A stretch of 20,807 nt of DNA from Bacteroidales bacterium (GTDB lineage: Bacteria > Bacteroidota > Bacteroidia > Bacteroidales > UBA932). Below the pieces are notes generated by a model. The model did no database searches. It was not told the origin of the DNA and saw only the letters and a program-made list of their open reading frames with translations. Below are positions 186-8,365 of the stretch, one piece after another. Each line of letters opens with the position of its first letter. Position 1 is the stretch's first letter. Both the position numbers and the translations under genes were made by a program. Where the stretch lies: the NCBI GenBank assembly GCA_004555145.1, contig SFJB01000015.1, forward strand, positions 1 through 20,807. The letters run 5' to 3'.

Positions 186-1553
186 TCATATCTTCGGAAG
201 CTTTGACAGGCTCTCTGCGATTTCTGCATCAGTCGGAATTACGTCTGACATAGTTCCGTCGTTGTAGCTTTCGTAAGCCTTGAGGTCGAAATAGCCCGTA
301 CCTGTCAAACCGAAGAGTATGGTTTTCTCTTCGCCTGTCTCCTTGCATTTCAATGCTTCGTCTATGGCTGCACGTATGGCGTGGCTGCTCTCCGGTGCAG
401 GCAAAGTGCCTTCCACGCGCGCAAACATCTCCGCCGCCTCGAACACCGAGGTCTGTTCCACGGCACGCGCTTCAATATAGCCGTCGTGGTATAACTGGGA
501 AAGTATAGTGCTCATTCCGTGGAAGCGCAATCCTCCGGAGTGGTTCGCAGACGGTATGAACTGGCTTCCTAGAGTGTACATCTTCGCAAGCGGACAAATC
601 ATTCCCGTATCGCAGAAGTCGTATGCAAACTTACCCCTGGTAAAACTTGGACAGGATGCCGGCTCCACGGCTATGATGCGATAGTCAGCCTCTCCCCTGA
701 GCATCTCGCCCACGAACGGGCTAACAAGTCCGCCGAGGTTGGATCCGCCGCCTGCGCAACCTATGATGATGTCCGGCTTGATGCCGTATTTTTCAAGTGC
801 CGTCTTCGCTTCCAGACCTATCACCGTCTGATGCAGCAGCACCTGGTTGAGCACGGATCCGAGCACGTACCTGTAGCCAGGGTTGGATACTGCCGCCTCC
901 ACTGCTTCGGAAATGGCGCAGCCAAGGCTTCCGGTAGTGTCAGGATACTCTTCGAGAAGCTTGCGTCCCACATTGGTGGTCATACTTGGAGATGGGGTCA
1001 CCTGTGCGCCATAGGTTCGCATCACCTCGCGACGGAAAGGTTTCTGCTCATAGGAACACTTCACCATAAACACCTTGCAGTCAAGGCCGAAATATGCACA
1101 GGCCATACTCATTGCCGTGCCCCACTGACCTGCCCCGGTCTCGGTGGTGACACCCTTCAGCCCCTGCTGTTTGGCATAATAGGCCTGGGCGATGGCTGAG
1201 TTCAGCTTATGGCTGCCCGAGGTGTTGTTGCCCTCGAACTTATAATATATCTTGGCAGGGGTATCCAGAGCCTTTTCCAGAAAGTAAGCCCTTACCAGAG
1301 GAGATGGCCTGTACATCCTGTAGAAATCCTGGATCTCACGGGGGATCTCGAAGAAACGGGTGTCGTTATCCAACTCCTGGCGGCAAAGTTCCTCGCAGAA
1401 AATCGGGCTGAGTTCATCCAGGGTCAGAGCTTTGCCTGTTCCGGGATTGAGCAGAGGCGCCGGCTTGTTCTTCATATCAGCGCGTACGTTATACCATTGG
1501 GTAGGTATCTCGCTCTCTGCAAGATAGATTTTGTAAGGAATTTTCTCTTTCAT
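186..1553 (-). CDS. trpB: Tryptophan synthase beta chain, TrpB2 type (455 aa)
   Basis: A PLP enzyme that condenses indole with L-serine to give tryptophan in the cytosol. The PLP-binding lysine is K116 in NTSGSHKLNSA. The catalytic glutamate is E138 in TETGAGQWG. The glycine-rich phosphate loop GCAGGGSNLGG is at 265-275. The longer N-terminus (about 455 aa against about 400 in TrpB1) and the SYEQKPFRREVM and FIPSANHSGGLRFHG segments fit the TrpB2 subfamily. TrpB2 proteins often lack the contacts for TrpA and may work with free indole. No trpA or other trp gene is nearby, so indole salvage is as likely as a step in full synthesis. The upstream leader has a Trp-codon attenuator, which ties expression to tryptophan shortage and argues against a purely serine-deaminating role. 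The ATG at 1553 is the only good start and lies 39 nt after the terminator U-run. Confidence 0.93.
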   Translation of the reverse strand: MKEKIPYKIYLAESEIPTQWYNVRADMKNKPAPLLNPGTGKALTLDELSPIFCEELCRQELDNDTRFFEIPREIQDFYRMYRPSPLVRAYFLEKALDTPAKIYYKFEGNNTSGSHKLNSAIAQAYYAKQQGLKGVTTETGAGQWGTAMSMACAYFGLDCKVFMVKCSYEQKPFRREVMRTYGAQVTPSPSMTTNVGRKLLEEYPDTTGSLGCAISEAVEAAVSNPGYRYVLGSVLNQVLLHQTVIGLEAKTALEKYGIKPDIIIGCAGGGSNLGGLVSPFVGEMLRGEADYRIIAVEPASCPSFTRGKFAYDFCDTGMICPLAKMYTLGSQFIPSANHSGGLRFHGMSTILSQLYHDGYIEARAVEQTSVFEAAEMFARVEGTLPAPESSHAIRAAIDEALKCKETGEEKTILFGLTGTGYFDLKAYESYNDGTMSDVIPTDAEIAESLSKLPKI

Positions 1554-1592: not shown

Positions 1593-1623
1593 AAAAAAAA
1601 TCCCGTCGCAGTCGCGGCAGGAT
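1593..1623 (-). terminator. Attenuator terminator in the trpB2 leader
   Basis: On the minus strand, bases 1623 to 1614 pair with 1609 to 1600 around the loop GACT. There is one C-A mismatch and one G-U pair, and the core is GC-rich. A run of eight T (1600 to 1593) follows directly. This is a rho-independent terminator placed before, not after, a gene, as expected for attenuation. It is the 3:4 hairpin of the leader described in the neighbouring entries. Confidence 0.85.
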
Positions 1624-1690
1624 GTATGGGCAGAATGGAATATATGCACACAAGGATGAAACCTACTACGACTTTGGAAGTTGTAATAAG
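1602..1690 (-). promoter_or_regulatory. Tryptophan attenuator: alternative pairings 1:2, 2:3 and 3:4
   Basis: Segment 1 is 1690-1678 (CTTATTACAACTT), segment 2 is 1674-1662 (AAGTCGTAGTAGG), segment 3 is 1621-1610 (CCTGCCGCGACT) and segment 4 is 1609-1602. By hand, 1:2 forms 12 of 13 pairs, two of them G-U, around a CCA loop. The 2:3 antiterminator forms 11 of 12 pairs, two of them G-U. The 3:4 pairing is the U8 terminator. The three Trp codons end 2 nt before segment 1, and the leader stop codon lies inside segment 2. A ribosome stalled on Trp codons would cover segment 1 and free 2:3. A ribosome reaching the stop would cover segment 2 and allow 3:4. The pairing is seen in the sequence; the mechanism is inferred from the classic enterobacterial trp leader. 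Confidence 0.85.
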
Positions 1691-1722
1691 CGCCACCACC
1701 AGATGTTGCAATTATATCTCAT
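1666..1722 (-). CDS. trpL: trp leader peptide, 18 aa with WWW
   Basis: ATG at 1722 opens a short frame that reads MRYNCNIWWWRLLQLPKS and stops at TAG (1668-1666). Three consecutive TGG codons (1701-1693) in 18 codons are very unlikely by chance. Its position between a promoter-like box and an intrinsic terminator upstream of a tryptophan synthase gene identifies it as a regulatory leader peptide. It is too short to appear in normal gene calls. The start follows an A-rich stretch (GAAAAAGAAATAGAA), as is common for Bacteroidota translation starts. Confidence 0.87.
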   Translation of the reverse strand: MRYNCNIWWWRLLQLPKS

Positions 1723-1741
1723 TTCTATTTCTTTTTCGTGT

Positions 1742-1772
1742 GCAAGGTAGAAAATGTTTTTCTAAAGTCCAA
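1742..1772 (-). promoter_or_regulatory. Probable promoter of the trpB2 leader transcript
   Basis: On the minus strand TACCTTGCA (1749-1741) is one T short of the common Bacteroidota -7 sequence TACCTTTGCA. A TTGG (1772-1769) stands 19 nt upstream as a -33 candidate. The predicted transcript starts about 15 nt before the leader peptide ATG. The match is imperfect, but the spacing and position are right. It begins just after the stop of the beta-propeller gene at 1790, so trpB2 is probably not only a read-through product of the glycoside hydrolase operon. Confidence 0.5.
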
Positions 1773-1789: not shown

Positions 1790-2584
1790 TCAATAAATTC
1801 CTTCCCCGACCGCTATGTAAGTCTCTCCGTTGAAAGCAATGCCACGCACGTCCCCGGACCGTGTATACTCGGGGTAATTGCAATGCGAGCAGGCGGGCAA
1901 ATAGAAGATTACGCCGCCCGAGCATCCGAGCACAAAGGCATTCCGGGCAGTGCTATAGCAAGCCGAAAGCACTTGGTTCTCAAGCACATACCTGCTACCA
2001 TCCAGAGTATAATCCAATTCGCGACGACTCCACACCGAGCCCTTTTCGGAGACGAAAGCTACAGCCCGACCGCTTCCCTCCTCCACCCCGGCGACGCACA
2101 CGGCATCAGGCGACACTGCAAGTGCGGTGAGTTGCACGGGACCGTAGTATGCGGAATACAGTTCATTGAAATCCAGAATCTCTGCGCGGAACTCATCGTC
2201 AAGACGCAGGATGCGGGAAGACGAATCCAGGGCATAGCAGCGCTCGCCAAGGCAGGCAAAATCAATGTAGTCAAAAGATTTGGGCAAATCTAGATCCACC
2301 TCTTCCCAGGAGCCTGAGGAAGTCTCAAGCAAGCCCACGAGCCTATCTGAATACAGCGCGCAAAGCACTCCGTCCAATATGCTCAGCCTGACAGCGTCAT
2401 CCGGAGAGACAAGCTTATATTCGGAGTGTTTCACGGCAGCGGAGTCAAGGAACTCCACAGTTCCGCAATCCGTCAGAGCGGCAAAACCGTCCCTGTACTC
2501 AACGGCATCTACATAGAAAATCTCCGACCGGGGGATAAGCCCGGCCAGAGATACTAGAATCCAATACAGAAGTTTACTTGCCAA
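1790..2584 (-). CDS. Hypothetical beta-propeller-like (BNR-like) protein, 264 aa
   Basis: Not a family I can name. The sequence is a run of beta-rich, hydrophobic-then-turn units, about 40-50 residues each. The final unit, with GDVRGIAFNGETYIAVGEG, resembles the 'ITYGNGRFVAVG' repeats of BNR/photosystem-II-like propellers. An N-terminal hydrophobic stretch (residues 4-17) may be a signal peptide or anchor, with no lipobox cysteine. No ATG is available: the first usable start is TTG at 2584, which overlaps the last 11 nt of the GH3 gene, so translation is probably coupled. As third gene of the GH51-GH3 operon it may be secreted and have a glycan-related role, but this is a guess from context. 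It ends within an apparent blade, so the propeller may be incomplete or close across its termini. Confidence 0.65.
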   Translation of the reverse strand: MASKLLYWILVSLAGLIPRSEIFYVDAVEYRDGFAALTDCGTVEFLDSAAVKHSEYKLVSPDDAVRLSILDGVLCALYSDRLVGLLETSSGSWEEVDLDLPKSFDYIDFACLGERCYALDSSSRILRLDDEFRAEILDFNELYSAYYGPVQLTALAVSPDAVCVAGVEEGSGRAVAFVSEKGSVWSRRELDYTLDGSRYVLENQVLSACYSTARNAFVLGCSGGVIFYLPACSHCNYPEYTRSGDVRGIAFNGETYIAVGEGIY

Positions 2585-5500
2585 TTCTGAAGAAATCGAA
2601 TGACACTTCGAAAGGAGTATTGTCCGTCTGAGCCTGCATTCCTCTCAAGAAAGAAGCATATCGGGCAGGAATGACTCCGTTGCATGCAATCAGGCCGGCA
2701 TTGATATCCTTGAGGATAATATCCACCTTGCCTGCCTCCACATATTTCTTTCCGTCCACAGAATAATATGCAGTGTAGCTGGAGCCCCTTTTCACCAGAC
2801 GGAGCCAAAGGGTATTCCCGGACAGCTCGACATCATTGAGGCTGACGCTGACGTTGGCCTTGCTGTTGCCGTCCGACTCGCAGCTGAGCTGCAGAGAACC
2901 GGCTCCGGACTGCTCTCTTCTGAAGCCCGGTGCGGCATAGACAAACTTCACGAAATTGTCATCATCCTGATATGCCAGCAGACCGGCATTCTGGGAAGGT
3001 AATCCCGGAGTTCTGGAGCAGCTGATCTTCGTGGTGACTGTCCAGTCGCTGTTGGCGCTCTGTAGGAATATGTTCCCAGCTCCGTCATTCGACTCGGAGA
3101 TATCCCCCTCTGAAGCCTTGATTTTCAATGCAGTTCCATCCAGGCTCCAGGCTGAAGCATCTTCTCTGAGTATGCTCCAGGCAGAAGAAAGCTTCCCTGA
3201 ATTGAATTCGTCGGAAACGCCTTTCACTCCAAAGTTGACATAATACAATGACTCGTCAGCCGTCATGTCGTCAATCAGCTTCACGACAGCGGTTCCAGGC
3301 ACAGACTCAGCCTGCCGTATCTCCACGCGCAGCTCAGGGTCGGCGGCCTTTGCGCTGAGCTGAGGAGCAACGGAAGAAGCCTTGCGTGCGAAGGAGTACT
3401 GTTTCACTCCTGCCTTGAGTATGTTTTTGCCGTCAAGTCTGAGTTCCGCAAGCGAGAGATCCGGCATAACCTTCAACACATATGAAGAACTTACGTATTT
3501 TCCTTCGTAGCTGACAGTTGCCGTAATGGTGGCAACGCCCTGGGACTTTGCGAAGATTCTGCCCTCAGCATCCACCGACACCACAGCCGGATTGTTGCTG
3601 AGATAACGGACATCCTTTGCTTCCACGAAGGAATCATCGCTGAGGCAGGCCGTATAGCTGGTAAGGGCGCTTTCCCCTACCTTCAGCACTGACACTCCGC
3701 AGTCCGCAACCACAGTCTTGAGATAAGGAACATAGCTGCTGTCATTCATCCTGGCATATACCCTGCCTGATATATTCTTGGAAGAAGAACCTATTTCGAA
3801 TGCGTACAAGCCCTTGTCCCAAATCATACGGTCGGCTTCCATATCCCAGAACCACAGATCCTCACAGTCTATTTCAAAGCAGACCGTCTTGGTCTGACCC
3901 TTAGGGATGGTTACCCTTCTGAAGGCCTTGAGCCTCTTGATAGGTCGCTGCGCTTCCACCGGACTTTCCGGAGTGCTCACATAGACCTGCACCACCTCAT
4001 CTCCGTCATAATCGCCGACATTGGTCACATCCACACTGATGCGGACCTTACCAGCAGGCCTGATTTCATCGCGGTCTATGCGGAAATTAGAGTAACTGAA
4101 TTCGGTATATGAAAGTCCGTATCCGAATTCATAGGATACAGGCTTGTCAAAGTACCAGAGGGTGCGTCCGTTCTTGCCTTCAGCTCCGCGAAGGGTATAG
4201 TCGGTGATGGCAGGAAGGTCCTTTACGCTCCTGTACCAGGTGGCATTGAGTTTTCCTCCCGGATTCACATCTCCGAAGAGAACCTTGGATATGGCTGCAC
4301 CCTGGGCTTGACCGTTATAACCGGTCCAAAGTATGCCGGGGATGTTTTCAAGGTTCTTGAACTCCTCGACCTCCACGCATCCAAGGGTCTGCATAACCAC
4401 GATTGTATTCCTGTTCACGGAAGCTACGGCTTTGATGAGATTGAGCTGGTTGCCCGGGAGCTGCAGGGTGAGGCGGTCAGCTTCCTCGGTGGCTGTATTC
4501 TCATCAGTACCCACAAAAACTATAGCCACGTCCGAGGTCCTTGCCATTTCCAGGGTTGCCGGGTCGATTTCCTCGTCTTCGGCTGCCTTGTACACCAGGT
4601 ACAGGGTCTGAGGTCCGTTGTATCCGAGCCTGTTGACCTTGGCTTCCATTGGGGTGCTGGCGCCGTACACTCCGCCGACGCGCTTGCCCGATGCCTTGGT
4701 AGCCTCGAGCGTACTGATGAGATTGCCGTCAGGGGAACCTACGTGCACCTCGATGATACCTCCCTCGGTAGGGATGTTCACGCCAATGGTAATTTTGTCC
4801 ACATTGATGAGATCGATATTCTCGTATGCAGTCCAGGACCCGTCATCTATGGAGCGTACCTGCTCCTCCGTACCCATACCTGAGCCGACGGTGATGCCCT
4901 CGGATGAGGCGGAGTAACGTGTGGCGTCGTGCCTGCTCACGCTTCCGTCCGCCTTTGTCAGCTCGAAGTATGCCACATAGAGGAGGTTGCTCTTGCTCTT
5001 CGTGCTTCCGCCGGATGCGAGCCTGACTTCAACTTCAGGATTGCGGGCGGCAAGATATGAGCTGATTCCCTGATATGGACTTATGCGGCTGCTTTCCTCC
5101 GGACGGCCGGAATAAGGGCCCAGCTCCACCTTGTCGGCCTGAGGACCGATAAGGGCTACGCTCTTGAGTCCTCTTGCATCTAGAGGGAGGGCCCGGGAAC
5201 TTGTACCGGCTACGGTTTCATTTTTCAGCAGCACCGCAGTGCGGGTGGCAACTTCCTCAGCCAGAGCCTGGTAGCGCTTCTCGTTCACCATAGTCACAGG
5301 GTAGAGTGCATACGGCACCATAGGATCGGGGTCGAACTCACCGGTACGCATACGTATGGTAAACACGTTCACGAGCGCCCTGTCGATGTCTGCCATAGTG
5401 ATGAGGCCCTGCTCCAATGCGCTGATGGCGTACCTTTGATATACGCTGCCGCAATCGGAATCCACTCCGGCCTTCAGTCCGGCCGCAGTGGCCTGCTCGG

Positions 5501-6338
5501 CTGTCTGCACATAGTAGTGGCCTGTATATATGTCTTCTATGGCGGCGCAGTCACCTGTCACGTAACCCTTCAGTCCGTAGGTACGGCGGGCTATGGTGTC
5601 CAGATAGAAAGTGCTGGCGGAGGTTGGCACCCCGTTCACCGCATTATAGGAGGACATTATCGATGGAAGATTGTCATTTTCAATGAGTTCCTTGTAAGGA
5701 TAGAGGTAGAATTCCCTCATGTCCCTGCTATCCATGTCGGAACTGCCCACGTGGCGGTTGAACTCACTGTTGTTTGCGAAATAGTGCTTCGCGCATGGGA
5801 CAGCCTTCATATAATCCGGATCGTCGCCCATAAGTCCGCGGACATAGGCACCGGACATCACAGCAGAAAGGAAAGGATCCTCCCCGTAGGACTCTCCGGT
5901 TCTTCCCCACCTTGGGTCACGGATCGGTTCCACTACCGGAGACCAGAAGGTAAGGCCCTTGGTTCCGGTTTGGAAGATTGCACGGGCCTCGTCTGCGATG
6001 GCAGAAGCCATCCTTTCAAGAAGCTGGGGATCCCAGGAAGAACCGATTGCCACACTGTTAGGATAAGAGGTCGGGCCCTGCTGCCCCACTTCAGGGTTTG
6101 CACCCGTAAGGACTCCGTGCAGAGCCTCGCTCCATACATTGTACTGTCTTACTCCCAGCCTAGGCACAGGAGCCATATTGTTGCCAAGCAGACTCTCCTT
6201 CTCCTCAAGGGTGAGTCTGGACACCAGATCCACAGCCCTTTCTTCAAAGCTGTAATTTGTGTTCTGATAGATAGGCAGATTGTTCTGGGCAGCTGCTGCA
6301 GCGCCCACAAACAGGAATAATGATGCTAAAAATCTCAT
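2574..6338 (-). CDS. Secreted multidomain GH3 beta-xylosidase/beta-glucosidase, 1254 aa
   Basis: An exo-acting glycosidase that likely removes terminal xylose (or glucose) from plant oligosaccharides in the periplasm or at the surface. Residues 1-17 are a signal peptide ending AAAA before AQNN. The GH3 N-terminal barrel covers about 30-340, with the nucleophile D263 in KGYVTGDCAA and the KHYFANN motif at 184-190. The GH3 C-terminal domain (about 365-700) is split by a CBM6-like insert (about 440-585). The acid/base is probably one of the glutamates in ENTATEEADRLTLQLPG (E613-E619). A fibronectin-III-like domain follows at about 755-860. Beyond the usual GH3 end come a Big2 Ig-like domain (about 875-957), a linker domain and a concanavalin-like domain (about 1042-1254, starting DEFNSGKLSSAW) of the type at the C-terminus of GH43 xylosidases. 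The start lies 11 nt after the GH51 stop. The exact sugar cannot be fixed, but the GH51 partner favours xylosidase action on arabinoxylan. Confidence 0.92.
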   Translation of the reverse strand: MRFLASLFLFVGAAAAAQNNLPIYQNTNYSFEERAVDLVSRLTLEEKESLLGNNMAPVPRLGVRQYNVWSEALHGVLTGANPEVGQQGPTSYPNSVAIGSSWDPQLLERMASAIADEARAIFQTGTKGLTFWSPVVEPIRDPRWGRTGESYGEDPFLSAVMSGAYVRGLMGDDPDYMKAVPCAKHYFANNSEFNRHVGSSDMDSRDMREFYLYPYKELIENDNLPSIMSSYNAVNGVPTSASTFYLDTIARRTYGLKGYVTGDCAAIEDIYTGHYYVQTAEQATAAGLKAGVDSDCGSVYQRYAISALEQGLITMADIDRALVNVFTIRMRTGEFDPDPMVPYALYPVTMVNEKRYQALAEEVATRTAVLLKNETVAGTSSRALPLDARGLKSVALIGPQADKVELGPYSGRPEESSRISPYQGISSYLAARNPEVEVRLASGGSTKSKSNLLYVAYFELTKADGSVSRHDATRYSASSEGITVGSGMGTEEQVRSIDDGSWTAYENIDLINVDKITIGVNIPTEGGIIEVHVGSPDGNLISTLEATKASGKRVGGVYGASTPMEAKVNRLGYNGPQTLYLVYKAAEDEEIDPATLEMARTSDVAIVFVGTDENTATEEADRLTLQLPGNQLNLIKAVASVNRNTIVVMQTLGCVEVEEFKNLENIPGILWTGYNGQAQGAAISKVLFGDVNPGGKLNATWYRSVKDLPAITDYTLRGAEGKNGRTLWYFDKPVSYEFGYGLSYTEFSYSNFRIDRDEIRPAGKVRISVDVTNVGDYDGDEVVQVYVSTPESPVEAQRPIKRLKAFRRVTIPKGQTKTVCFEIDCEDLWFWDMEADRMIWDKGLYAFEIGSSSKNISGRVYARMNDSSYVPYLKTVVADCGVSVLKVGESALTSYTACLSDDSFVEAKDVRYLSNNPAVVSVDAEGRIFAKSQGVATITATVSYEGKYVSSSYVLKVMPDLSLAELRLDGKNILKAGVKQYSFARKASSVAPQLSAKAADPELRVEIRQAESVPGTAVVKLIDDMTADESLYYVNFGVKGVSDEFNSGKLSSAWSILREDASAWSLDGTALKIKASEGDISESNDGAGNIFLQSANSDWTVTTKISCSRTPGLPSQNAGLLAYQDDDNFVKFVYAAPGFRREQSGAGSLQLSCESDGNSKANVSVSLNDVELSGNTLWLRLVKRGSSYTAYYSVDGKKYVEAGKVDIILKDINAGLIACNGVIPARYASFLRGMQAQTDNTPFEVSFDFFRIGK

Positions 6339-6349
6339 AACCTTTAATC

Positions 6350-8341
6350 TTATCTACTACCAGTTTTACTGAAAATGTATACTGCAAATGTTTTAGGTGC
6401 AATGGTAAGTTCGAAACTTTGCCCTTCAGCTGATACTTCCTTCTTCTGAGGGACAATCTTTTCTGCTTCGTCGAGTGTGTTCTCAGCATCAGGGTCGTCA
6501 CTGTGGTATGTAACGACGGCAAGCTGCCTGACGGTCTGTTTCTTCTTCAGGCCGTCGAAAACAAGATTAATGTCCTGAGGAACGTCAGAAACGTTGGCCA
6601 CCTTGACATATATGCTGTTGCTGTCGGCATCGAGCACGGAGCTGGCAAACAGGCCGTTCTGGTCTTCCGCGCCGCTAACCGCACGTCCGTCCATAGTCAG
6701 GCTGAGCACGTTGGTCCCCTTGTAGGTGGTGTACAGCTGCTGGACATAATAGCTGCAGGAACGCATGCTGCGGAGGTTGTCGAACCATATCAGATCCGGC
6801 CTCCACTGCCATCCTTCGACGTGGGCGAAGAGAGGAGCATAAGTTGCCATATATACGACGTCGGCGTTCCTTTCAAGTCCGGTCATAAAGGCAGCCTCAA
6901 GCAGGGATGCCTCGAAATGGTTCCATTTCTTGCCTTTTCCGTGGCAGGCATACTCCCCGGCGAACACCTTGGGACCCTTGCGATCATAATTGTCATATCT
7001 GGCGCCCTGGGAAAGGAACCATTTTTCAGGACGGTAGAAATGCTCGTCCACGAGGTCTGCTCCAAGTTTCTTCATCTCCGGCCAGAGGAAGTCAAATTGC
7101 TTTCCTTCAGAATTAGGTCCTGAGGAACCTACTATCTTGATTTCAGGGTAAGCCTTGCGTATTGCGGCGACGAAAGGCTCGAGGTGATCGACATAGGTCT
7201 GGTCCCACTGCTCATTTCCTATGGCTATATACTTGAGATCGAATGGATCGGGATGGCCCATAGAGGCACGTACGGAGCCCCATTTGCTATCGGCGGGGCC
7301 ATTTGCAAATTCTATCAGGTCAAGCGCATCCTGAATATATTCATCAAGCTGATCGACAGGACAGTGCGCATCCTCCGTGTCATTCTGGAACTGGCAGGCA
7401 AGTCCGCAGCTGAGTACAGGAAGCGGTTCTGCACCTATATCCTCTGAGAGGAGGAAATACTCATAAAAACCGAGGCCGTATGACTGGTAGTAGTCAGGAT
7501 AGAAACGGTAGTCGAAGCAGTACTGCCACCTGTTCAGATTGAGAGGGCGGTTCTCCACAGGTCCGACGGTATTCTTCCACTGGTAGCGGGTTTCAAGGTC
7601 CGTACCTTCCACGATACATCCTCCCGGGAAACGGAACAAGCCCGGGTGCAGGTCATACAGGGCCTGGGCAAGATCCTTGCGCAAACCGTTCTTCCTGCCC
7701 TTCCAGGTATCCACCGGGAAAAGGGACACGTGCTCCAGATCCACAGCGTTGTTTCCGCGAAGGAAAATGCGCAGCGCCGCCTTGGGGTCGGTCACAGCAG
7801 AAGTCAGCTCAAGTTCGTACTTCTTCCATTCGGCAGAGCTAATCTTCAATTCTGAGGAAACGCTGGCCTGCCTGTCGTTCATCGAAGACCTGTCGAAGAA
7901 CTCTACGCGTATGGAAGCATCTTTTCCCTCTTCCACGCAGCGGGCCCAGACACTGAAACGGTACTTCTCCCCGGCCTTCAATCCGATTCCGAAGAAACCT
8001 TCATTCTCCAGAGCCGTATGCTTATGCGGATGCCCGGCACTGCTCAGCCGCACATAATACGGGTTGCGCTCGAAAGGTCCGTCATTGCGAAGCTCAACAT
8101 TTCCGGCCACGCTCCAACCCTGTAAGTGATTTGAAGGAAACTCGAAGGAACGGTTCTTGACAAGTTCCGCATAGAGTCCACCATCCGCAGCGAAGTTGAT
8201 GTCTTCGAAGAAAATACCGTACATGGTCGGCTGAATAGGAGCTCCTGTCTTATTGGTTCTCACGTGGAAAGTGTTGACCTGCGCAGACATCGAAATCGCC
8301 GATGCGGCAGCCATTGCAGATAATAAAATAGTTCTATACAT
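6350..8341 (-). CDS. Secreted GH51 alpha-L-arabinofuranosidase, 663 aa
   Basis: Releases alpha-L-arabinofuranose side chains from arabinoxylan or arabinan. A signal peptide (MYRTILLSAMAAASAISMSA, then Q) begins at ATG 8341. An in-frame TTG at 8362 is rejected because the promoter -7 box at 8366 puts the transcript start near 8360. The mature protein opens with the GH51 N-terminal signature MYGIFFEDINFAADGG. A CBM4/9-like beta-sandwich insert follows (about 70-210). The barrel has FRFPGGCIVEG, the acid/base E377 in IAIGNEQWD and the nucleophile E463 in FAGEY. A C-terminal beta-sandwich (about 530-663) is typical. It is the first gene of an operon with the GH3 enzyme, a pairing that fits stepwise removal of arabinose and then xylose. 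No susCD pair or regulator lies in the window. Confidence 0.93.
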   Translation of the reverse strand: MYRTILLSAMAAASAISMSAQVNTFHVRTNKTGAPIQPTMYGIFFEDINFAADGGLYAELVKNRSFEFPSNHLQGWSVAGNVELRNDGPFERNPYYVRLSSAGHPHKHTALENEGFFGIGLKAGEKYRFSVWARCVEEGKDASIRVEFFDRSSMNDRQASVSSELKISSAEWKKYELELTSAVTDPKAALRIFLRGNNAVDLEHVSLFPVDTWKGRKNGLRKDLAQALYDLHPGLFRFPGGCIVEGTDLETRYQWKNTVGPVENRPLNLNRWQYCFDYRFYPDYYQSYGLGFYEYFLLSEDIGAEPLPVLSCGLACQFQNDTEDAHCPVDQLDEYIQDALDLIEFANGPADSKWGSVRASMGHPDPFDLKYIAIGNEQWDQTYVDHLEPFVAAIRKAYPEIKIVGSSGPNSEGKQFDFLWPEMKKLGADLVDEHFYRPEKWFLSQGARYDNYDRKGPKVFAGEYACHGKGKKWNHFEASLLEAAFMTGLERNADVVYMATYAPLFAHVEGWQWRPDLIWFDNLRSMRSCSYYVQQLYTTYKGTNVLSLTMDGRAVSGAEDQNGLFASSVLDADSNSIYVKVANVSDVPQDINLVFDGLKKKQTVRQLAVVTYHSDDPDAENTLDEAEKIVPQKKEVSAEGQSFELTIAPKTFAVYIFSKTGSR

Positions 8342-8365
8342 AAGATATGGTATGTGGTTCAATTA

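Follow-up and report, generated by a model that had tools for sequence, protein, structure and literature searches.

Tryptophan attenuators in bacteria

The trpL leader of the Enterobacteriaceae is a ribosome-mediated trp attenuator, and in the textbook case, that of E. coli trp, segment 2 is complementary to the terminator's 5′ arm. In Bacillota, T-boxes and TRAP are known regulators that respond to tryptophan. Passages of Naville and Gautheret (2010; PMC2965389) state that leader-peptide systems were known only in Proteobacteria and Actinobacteria before their own his case from Bacilli. The actinobacterial trp attenuators are described, in passages of Seliverstov et al. (2005; PMC1262725), as having a leader peptide with two or three UGG codons, a terminator and alternative hairpins, and in C. 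diphtheriae attenuators precede both trpB1EDGC and trpB2A. Small open reading frames (ORFs) of B. thetaiotaomicron have been called ‘reminiscent of leader peptides’ in a passage of PMC7366714.

In the open literature, mostly without subscription papers, no trp leader of Bacteroidota and no leader of a stand-alone trpB2 was found described. The original prediction for the locus analysed here knew of no case for a stand-alone trpB2 in this phylum, which agrees with that literature, although leader-peptide attenuation as such has been hinted at for Flavobacterium psychrophilum, where passages of PMC9723704 call leader peptides before amino-acid operons ‘strong clues’. The class of mechanism proposed below is classical; a trp leader in Bacteroidota and a leader for a lone trpB2 are apparently undescribed in the open literature.

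The leader in the window

The window is the whole stretch of DNA analysed (20,807 nt), and coordinates throughout its leader–trpB2 region refer to the minus strand. The stop of the upstream gene (1790) and the ATG of trpB2 (1553) are separated by a gap of 236 nt. The features of the gap and of the gene behind it are as follows, with their basis in brackets.

1772–1769, minus strand: −33-like TTGG (sequence)
1742–1749, minus strand: promoter-like −7 box TACCTTGC (sequence)
1666–1722, minus strand: leader peptide ORF of 18 aa, MRYNCNIWWWRLLQLPKS and stop (sequence; similar leaders in relatives)
1722–1720 and 1668–1666, minus strand: leader ATG and stop codon TAG (sequence)
1693–1701, minus strand: three tandem Trp (UGG) codons, the putative control codons (sequence; tandem UGG in relatives)
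1692–1690, minus strand: Arg codon after the Trp run (sequence)
1678–1690, minus strand: segment 1, in the peptide ORF right after the Trp codons (folding; alignment of relatives)
1662–1674, minus strand: segment 2, containing the leader stop codon, with segment 1 or the terminator as predicted partner (folding; comparison)
1610–1621, minus strand: segment 3 (5′ arm and loop), the alternative predicted antiterminator partner (folding; comparison)
1605–1612, minus strand: terminator loop and upper 3′ arm, the predicted antiterminator partner of segment 2, pairing with 1672–1665 (folding; comparison)
1593–1623, minus strand: intrinsic terminator, hairpin 1623–1600 and U8 1600–1593 (sequence; folding)
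186–1553, minus strand: trpB2, the presumably regulated gene, encoding a TrpB-like PLP-dependent enzyme of 455 aa (profile searches; tree)

On re-reading of the sequence, the 236-nt gap, the 18-residue peptide and its three tandem Trp codons are all present as originally proposed. The control codons lie directly 5′ of segment 1 and the stop codon lies within segment 2, an arrangement that had also been claimed and with which the coordinates agree. An intrinsic terminator, recognised by sequence, stands between the leader and trpB2, with about 40 nt from the U run to the start of the gene. The predicted 1:2 pairing (1690–1678 with 1674–1662) was recovered as 9 + 4 bp with a 1 × 1 A·C mismatch (−10.2 kcal/mol), and likewise the 3:4 hairpin, with one C·A mismatch (−11.0 kcal/mol) and U8 next to it. 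The predicted 2:3 register (1673–1662 with 1621–1610) exists too, with 11 of 12 positions paired, and a second register joins 1672–1665 to 1612–1605 in eight continuous pairs that involve the terminator loop and 3′ arm. The comparison of folds that had been suggested as a check gives −17.3 kcal/mol over 1675–1601 with either antiterminator register imposed. The leader as a whole (1740–1580) is more stable than shuffled versions of itself (z −2.66; 2 of 200 equally good), and no Rfam family, trp leader and T-box included, matches the window at gathering score.

The consensus of the −7 element in Bacteroidota is TAnnTTTG. The promoter-like box of the original prediction is there, but TACCTTGC (1749–1742) is not an exact TAnnTTTG. 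Without the window and L001, 35 leaders were scored, and in 27 of them the 100 nt ahead of the UGG run contain an exact TAnnTTTG, against 8.7% of Markov-shuffled sequences; of the trpB2 leaders, L016 and L118 have it, and L002 and L005 do not.

Leaders in related genomes

A scan of species genomes for close relatives of the window's TrpB2 gave at least 80 loci, and 12 of the 80 listed carry Bacteroidota-type names. Among these listed matches, a leader of the window type precedes four of the 12 genes (L001, L002, L005 and L016, with peptides listed respectively as MGFTCNNTWWWRLLQLNES, MITRRNNWWWRNGQLTES, MFTSNAYWWWRLLQLQES and MKQYSTFWWWRSLQLKQS); all four carry AGUCGUA at their stop codon and possess a terminator. 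The other eight listed genes lack a leader of this type within 400–450 nt. R1, a covariance model made from 11 aligned leaders (A1), scores at least 70 bits only in the window and these four loci, among the window and the 80 loci listed. The original prediction was staked on conservation in close relatives, and where the leader occurs the Trp codons, the terminator and the paired segments are indeed kept. Short WW ORFs were sought in 30 of the 80 listed loci, and L011 has one of another kind. Rfam searches at gathering score in 20 of the 80 gave no leader match and one tRNA only. The R1 match at L077 (24.4 bits), some 860 nt ahead of where trpB2 begins and with no leader-like ORF seen before the gene, was excluded from A3, an alignment of 37 leaders fitted to the 1:2 and 3:4 pairings.

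Short sequence patterns led to the same leader ahead of canonical trpB in other genomes. One short pattern matched 8 of 199 genomes, four of which have leaders, and the matches in G037, G178, G124 and G008 are coding coincidences. In a bacterial order, R1 matches 81 of 247 genomes at E ≤ 0.01 and, by hand count, 44 of the 247 at 35 bits or more; among these 44, G001, G364 and G428 contain training leaders and G282 has a false match (L126). Control genomes behind non-Bacteroidota trpB2 loci (names mostly Clostridia) also match at E ≤ 0.01 in 7 of 32 cases, with a best score of 32.4 bits, in a comparison where laxer filters apply to the smaller searches; weak R1 matches were therefore not counted as leaders on score alone. 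Reading of 30 R1-matched loci found a tandem-Trp leader ORF in 28, W-Q-G-W in L118 and none in L126 (40.6 bits), which has no Trp leader and was excluded from A3. Antisense matches arise from the symmetrical terminator and were kept out of A3 by the threshold.

By HMM, the genes downstream of these leaders are trpB2 (L118), trpD (L107, L112) and trpB (L102, and also L083 from the short-pattern search), and those downstream of L119 and L122 are trpE, their best family being TIGR00564, yet below its cut-off. Most other downstream genes were named trpB from their N-termini, L120 and L123 trpE in the same way, and L124 is without assignment. The leader element is not special to trpB2, as it also stands ahead of trpB, trpE and trpD. 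One trpB leader (L101, 1501–1624, minus strand) has one base fewer after WWWR than its kin, so that its frame passes segment 2 and ends further downstream; segment 2 and the terminator are intact, and the leader may be decayed or the difference a sequencing error.

Across the phylum, R1 matches 18 of 247 genomes at E ≤ 0.001, G001 and G364 being already known. Nine of the 19 new loci (L127, L130, L131, L133–L136, L139 and L140) have a Trp-run leader and a terminator, with MKTILNNTWWWNNLRQSS as an example of the peptide, and six of the nine precede a trpE-like start as judged by the N-terminus. L132, L142 and L145 have just other short WW ORFs, L142 also with a UGG run at the edge of the stretch, and the remaining seven of the 19 have no Trp-run leader. 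A plasmid collection gave no match.

Searches starting from the gene gave a complementary count. In one bacterial family trpB2 is present in 98 of 199 genomes, and among the best 30 of these 98 loci a tandem-Trp ORF (8–40 aa, within 400 nt) precedes the gene in 15 and WWW in 11, against 42 and 1 of 1500 Markov shuffles of those loci, respectively. The leader is not universal before trpB2, 15 of the best 30 loci being without a tandem-Trp ORF. Only 4 of the best 30 reach 64 bits with R1, so most of the gene-derived trpB2 leaders are divergent. A second class of trpB2 leader (L153, L155, L161, L163, L173) has WWW[RH]SR.SVV..ALFM-like and WWWRNGN.VVN peptides that extend past a GUUGUG segment. 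Canonical trpB is over its cut-off in 53 of 119 genomes of the bacterial order; among the best 30 of these loci, 10 have tandem-Trp ORFs (1.7% of shuffles), that of L193 looking like chance, and six have WWW (0 of 1500 shuffles). In 9 of the 30 canonical loci a long ORF ends within 120 nt upstream of trpB, which therefore need not be the first gene of its operon there.

The trpB2 gene and its surroundings

The identification of the downstream gene as trpB2 stands, with 684.8 bits to NF009057 and 596.8 bits to TIGR01415; the canonical trpB family TIGR00263 gives 151.1 bits against a cut-off of 392.45. In a tree of TrpB2 (58 of 110 rows, midpoint root, bootstrap not settled), the window groups with 12 Bacteroidota-named rows (100/97), within a group otherwise mostly of Clostridia names and far from the other trpB2 type of the bacterial family (14 rows, 100/100). 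The simplest reading of these sequences would be a transfer of trpB2 between the two phyla, in either direction. The five leader-bearing rows of the window's clade require three changes on the tree, so that the leader has been acquired or lost repeatedly. A single in-frame stop interrupts several of the trpB2 matches in the bacterial family (G168, G066, G006, G049 and others), for which decay, an alignment that runs beyond the gene or recoding might account.

Upstream of trpB2, window positions 2574–8362 encode a GH3 enzyme of 1254 aa that also has CBM6 and GH43_C2-type domains, and an arabinofuranosidase-like enzyme of 670 aa; together they resemble a set for breaking down plant fibre. Between trpB2 and the GH3 gene, a frame of 264 aa (1790–2584) matches nothing in Pfam or NCBIfam at E 0.001.

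In five genomes with a trpB2 leader (G001–G004 and G268; completeness not stated), trpA, the TrpE/PabB N-domain and canonical trpB over its cut-off were each found in none, and in 14 control genomes all three were detected, trpB above its cut-off in 13. With no trpA, trpE or canonical trpB detected in these five genomes, trpB2 is probably their lone tryptophan-making enzyme and would use indole from neighbours. In the bacterial family, trpA is over its cut-off in 17 of the 98 trpB2 genomes (completeness not stated), and among the 30 trpB2 loci read its genome has trpA for 1 of the 15 that carry a leader and for 3 of the 15 that lack one. Gut Bifidobacterium is reported to salvage exogenous indole by way of tryptophan (PMC11085991).

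Pairing partners of segment 2

On A3, 93.1% of the cells of the 1:2 and 3:4 pairings are paired (shuffles 80.7%, slid 28–51%), and 16 of their 19 pairs show changes on both sides. When growing transcripts were folded with segment 1 blocked, to mimic a ribosome stalled at the final UGG, segment 2 paired with the terminator in every one of 11 leaders; the best fold changes to the terminator 0–12 nt before the end of the hairpin in 10 of the 11, and no switch occurs in the window.

The part of the terminator that segment 2 takes is where the original prediction and the comparison of leaders diverge. The 2:3 register that had been proposed exists in the window, but across the leader family the loop and 3′ arm is the better partner in 33 of 37 leaders (mean −10.4 versus −6.1 kcal/mol for the 5′ arm). 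The exceptions that favour the 5′ arm are L117, L119 and, slightly, the window's closest kin L001 and L002. For the 5′ arm and the loop with 3′ arm, respectively, the energies are −11.3 and −12.7 kcal/mol in the window, −11.4 and −11.3 in L001, and −11.8 and −11.4 in L002. As the 5′ arm pairing is good in the window and its closest kin (−11.3 to −11.8 kcal/mol), the 2:3 register may be used there, and since the 3′ arm emerges last, its capture would have to compete with the nearer 5′ arm. The loop and 3′ arm would thus be the favoured antiterminator partner family-wide, and the window could use both registers. On this pattern, segment 2 would be similar to the 5′ arm of the terminator, and the two would compete for the 3′ arm.

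Segment 2 pairs better with its own loop and 3′ arm than with those of other leaders, with means of −10.4 and −8.7 kcal/mol against −6.0 for shuffled segment 2, and a leader's own segment 2 is better than 95% of its shuffles in just 22 of 37. The second base of the stop codon and its loop partner form A-U in 14 leaders, G-C in 14, G-U in 4 and other combinations in 5 (n = 37; Fisher p 6 × 10−5, kinship ignored), so that the leader stop codon appears to covary with the terminator loop. In a fixed register of segment 2 with the loop and 3′ arm, 86.5% of cells are paired versus 81.0% with re-dealt partners (highest of 2000: 83.8%), and L103, L117, L118, L119, L123 and L125 are weak in it (2–6 of 10 positions pair). 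Seven pairs of this kind on A3 have 89.9% of cells paired (shuffles 87.1%, slid 17–68%), with 13 double-change cells versus 5.7 in shuffles (0 of 500 as high) and five pairs with double changes versus 2.5 (4 of 500 as high), in shuffle statistics that ignore kinship, segment 2 being near-invariant in close kin. Further pair types in this pairing were not above shuffles (11 versus 9.5; 78 of 500 as high). In the leaders, the conserved AGUCGUAAGG (1673–1661 in the window) resembles AGUCGUAACAAGG, a conserved sequence close to the 3′ end of 16S rRNA; this may be a coincidence.

A divergent set of 13 further trpB2 leaders was treated separately by pairing the entire stretch from the UGG run to the hairpin with the loop and 3′ arm or with the 5′ arm. 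A terminator-like hairpin is found in 12 of them (L149 has none in the stretch tested); the loop and 3′ arm is the better partner in 8 of the 12 and the 5′ arm in L161, L163, L173 and L174. Against 200 shuffles, ten or fewer are as good in L154, L155, L157, L166 and L167, which thereby beat 95%, 13 are as good in L153, 17 in L168 and 33–151 in the other five. Eight to nine continuous pairs with the loop and 3′ arm are kept in L153, L154, L157, L166 and L168 despite quite different letters, for example CUGUAAGUC with GGCUUACAG in L157 and GCGCACUGC with GCAGUGCGC in L154.

Proposed mechanism and alternative explanations

The element is very probably a ribosome-mediated leader-peptide transcription attenuator through which trpB2 responds to charged tRNA-Trp. 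Its parts, their conservation and their covariation come from sequence and comparison, and from these we infer stalling, termination and induction. Transcription would start about 10–20 nt upstream of the leader ATG, as judged from the −7 box. With plentiful Trp-tRNA the ribosome would reach the stop codon in segment 2 and occupy both segment 1 and segment 2, and the terminator hairpin could then form ahead of trpB2. Under a shortage of Trp-tRNA it would instead stall at the three UGG codons and cover segment 1, leaving segment 2 free to capture the terminator loop and 3′ arm (in the window perhaps the 5′ arm first); the terminator would be unable to close and RNA polymerase would continue into trpB2. 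If the leader is not translated, segment 1 would keep segment 2 and termination would be the default. TrpB2 probably makes tryptophan from salvaged indole, presumably its substrate here.

On balance, we lean towards a wider reading in which Bacteroidota have their own class of Trp attenuator. Its stop-codon segment would copy the 5′ arm of the terminator and take the loop and 3′ arm, inverting the textbook arrangement. Lineages losing the pathway would have placed this switch before trpB2, once before a trpB2 that gut and rumen Clostridia also have, and a shortage of tRNA-Trp would thereby turn on indole salvage. Our confidence in this reading is reduced by L001, L002 and four of the 12 divergent leaders, which favour the 5′ arm. 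The same leaders speak for an E. coli-like topology, in which the antiterminator would be segment 2 with the terminator 5′ arm and the match to the loop and 3′ arm a by-product of the likeness of segment 2 to the 5′ arm. The 5′ arm pairing is about equal or slightly better in the window and its closest kin, and it forms first in the window's growing transcript. We consider this topology unlikely but worth serious weight: the loop and 3′ arm is stronger in the large majority of the 37 leaders, loop bases covary with the stop codon, and the five divergent leaders named above keep their continuous loop and 3′ arm pairs with other letters in segment 2.

The remaining explanations dispense with attenuation by a leader peptide. 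The hairpin might be no more than a terminator or a spacer, and the ORF rich in Trp a chance occurrence, with the trpB2 promoter downstream of the hairpin; the roughly 40 nt behind the U run leave room for one, and eight of the 12 Bacteroidota-named relatives among the matches listed have a leaderless trpB2. Tandem-Trp ORFs ahead of trpB2 and trpB nevertheless far exceed shuffles, the pairings are conserved, and Trp genes lie downstream of the leaders wherever these genes were identified (that of L124 excepted), all of which makes this account very improbable. Another sensor of tryptophan, such as a T-box or a leader-binding protein, has its precedents in the T-boxes and TRAP of Bacillota, but we regard it as extremely improbable here, given an anatomy that is that of a leader peptide and the lack of an Rfam leader at gathering score in the window or in the 20 of 80 trpB2 loci searched.

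Comparison with known systems

A Trp attenuator conserved in a major phylum of the gut and unmatched by Rfam would supply an RNA model for annotation. It would also connect TrpB2, which is poorly characterised, with the supply of tryptophan and open indole cross-feeding in gut and rumen to direct tests, and capture of the loop and 3′ arm would depart from the standard antiterminator in a way that can be tested.

With regard to the enzyme, the window gene is above the cut-offs of both families of TrpB2/TrpB-like enzymes (TIGR01415 and NF009057); TIGR01415 is listed as a hypothetical equivalog, whereas here a Trp-specific leader would link the gene to tryptophan supply. Flavobacterium psychrophilum belongs to the same phylum as the window, but ‘trp’ and ‘tryptophan’ are absent from the main text of PMC9723704. 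The actinobacterial attenuators have a complementary triple gGCC-rGCy-GGCC, in which, from passages of PMC1262725, segment 2 seems to resemble segment 4, whereas here it resembles segment 3; according to the same passages, their trpB2 heads a trpB2A operon, and that of the window appears to stand alone. The likeness to trpL of the Enterobacteriaceae lies in the order of parts, with tandem Trp codons, then segment 1, a stop codon in segment 2, and a terminator and U run before a trp gene. The leaders described here differ from it in having no Rfam match, in the favoured antiterminator partner, which would be the loop and 3′ arm, and in the genes that they would control, namely trpB2, trpB, trpD or trpE.
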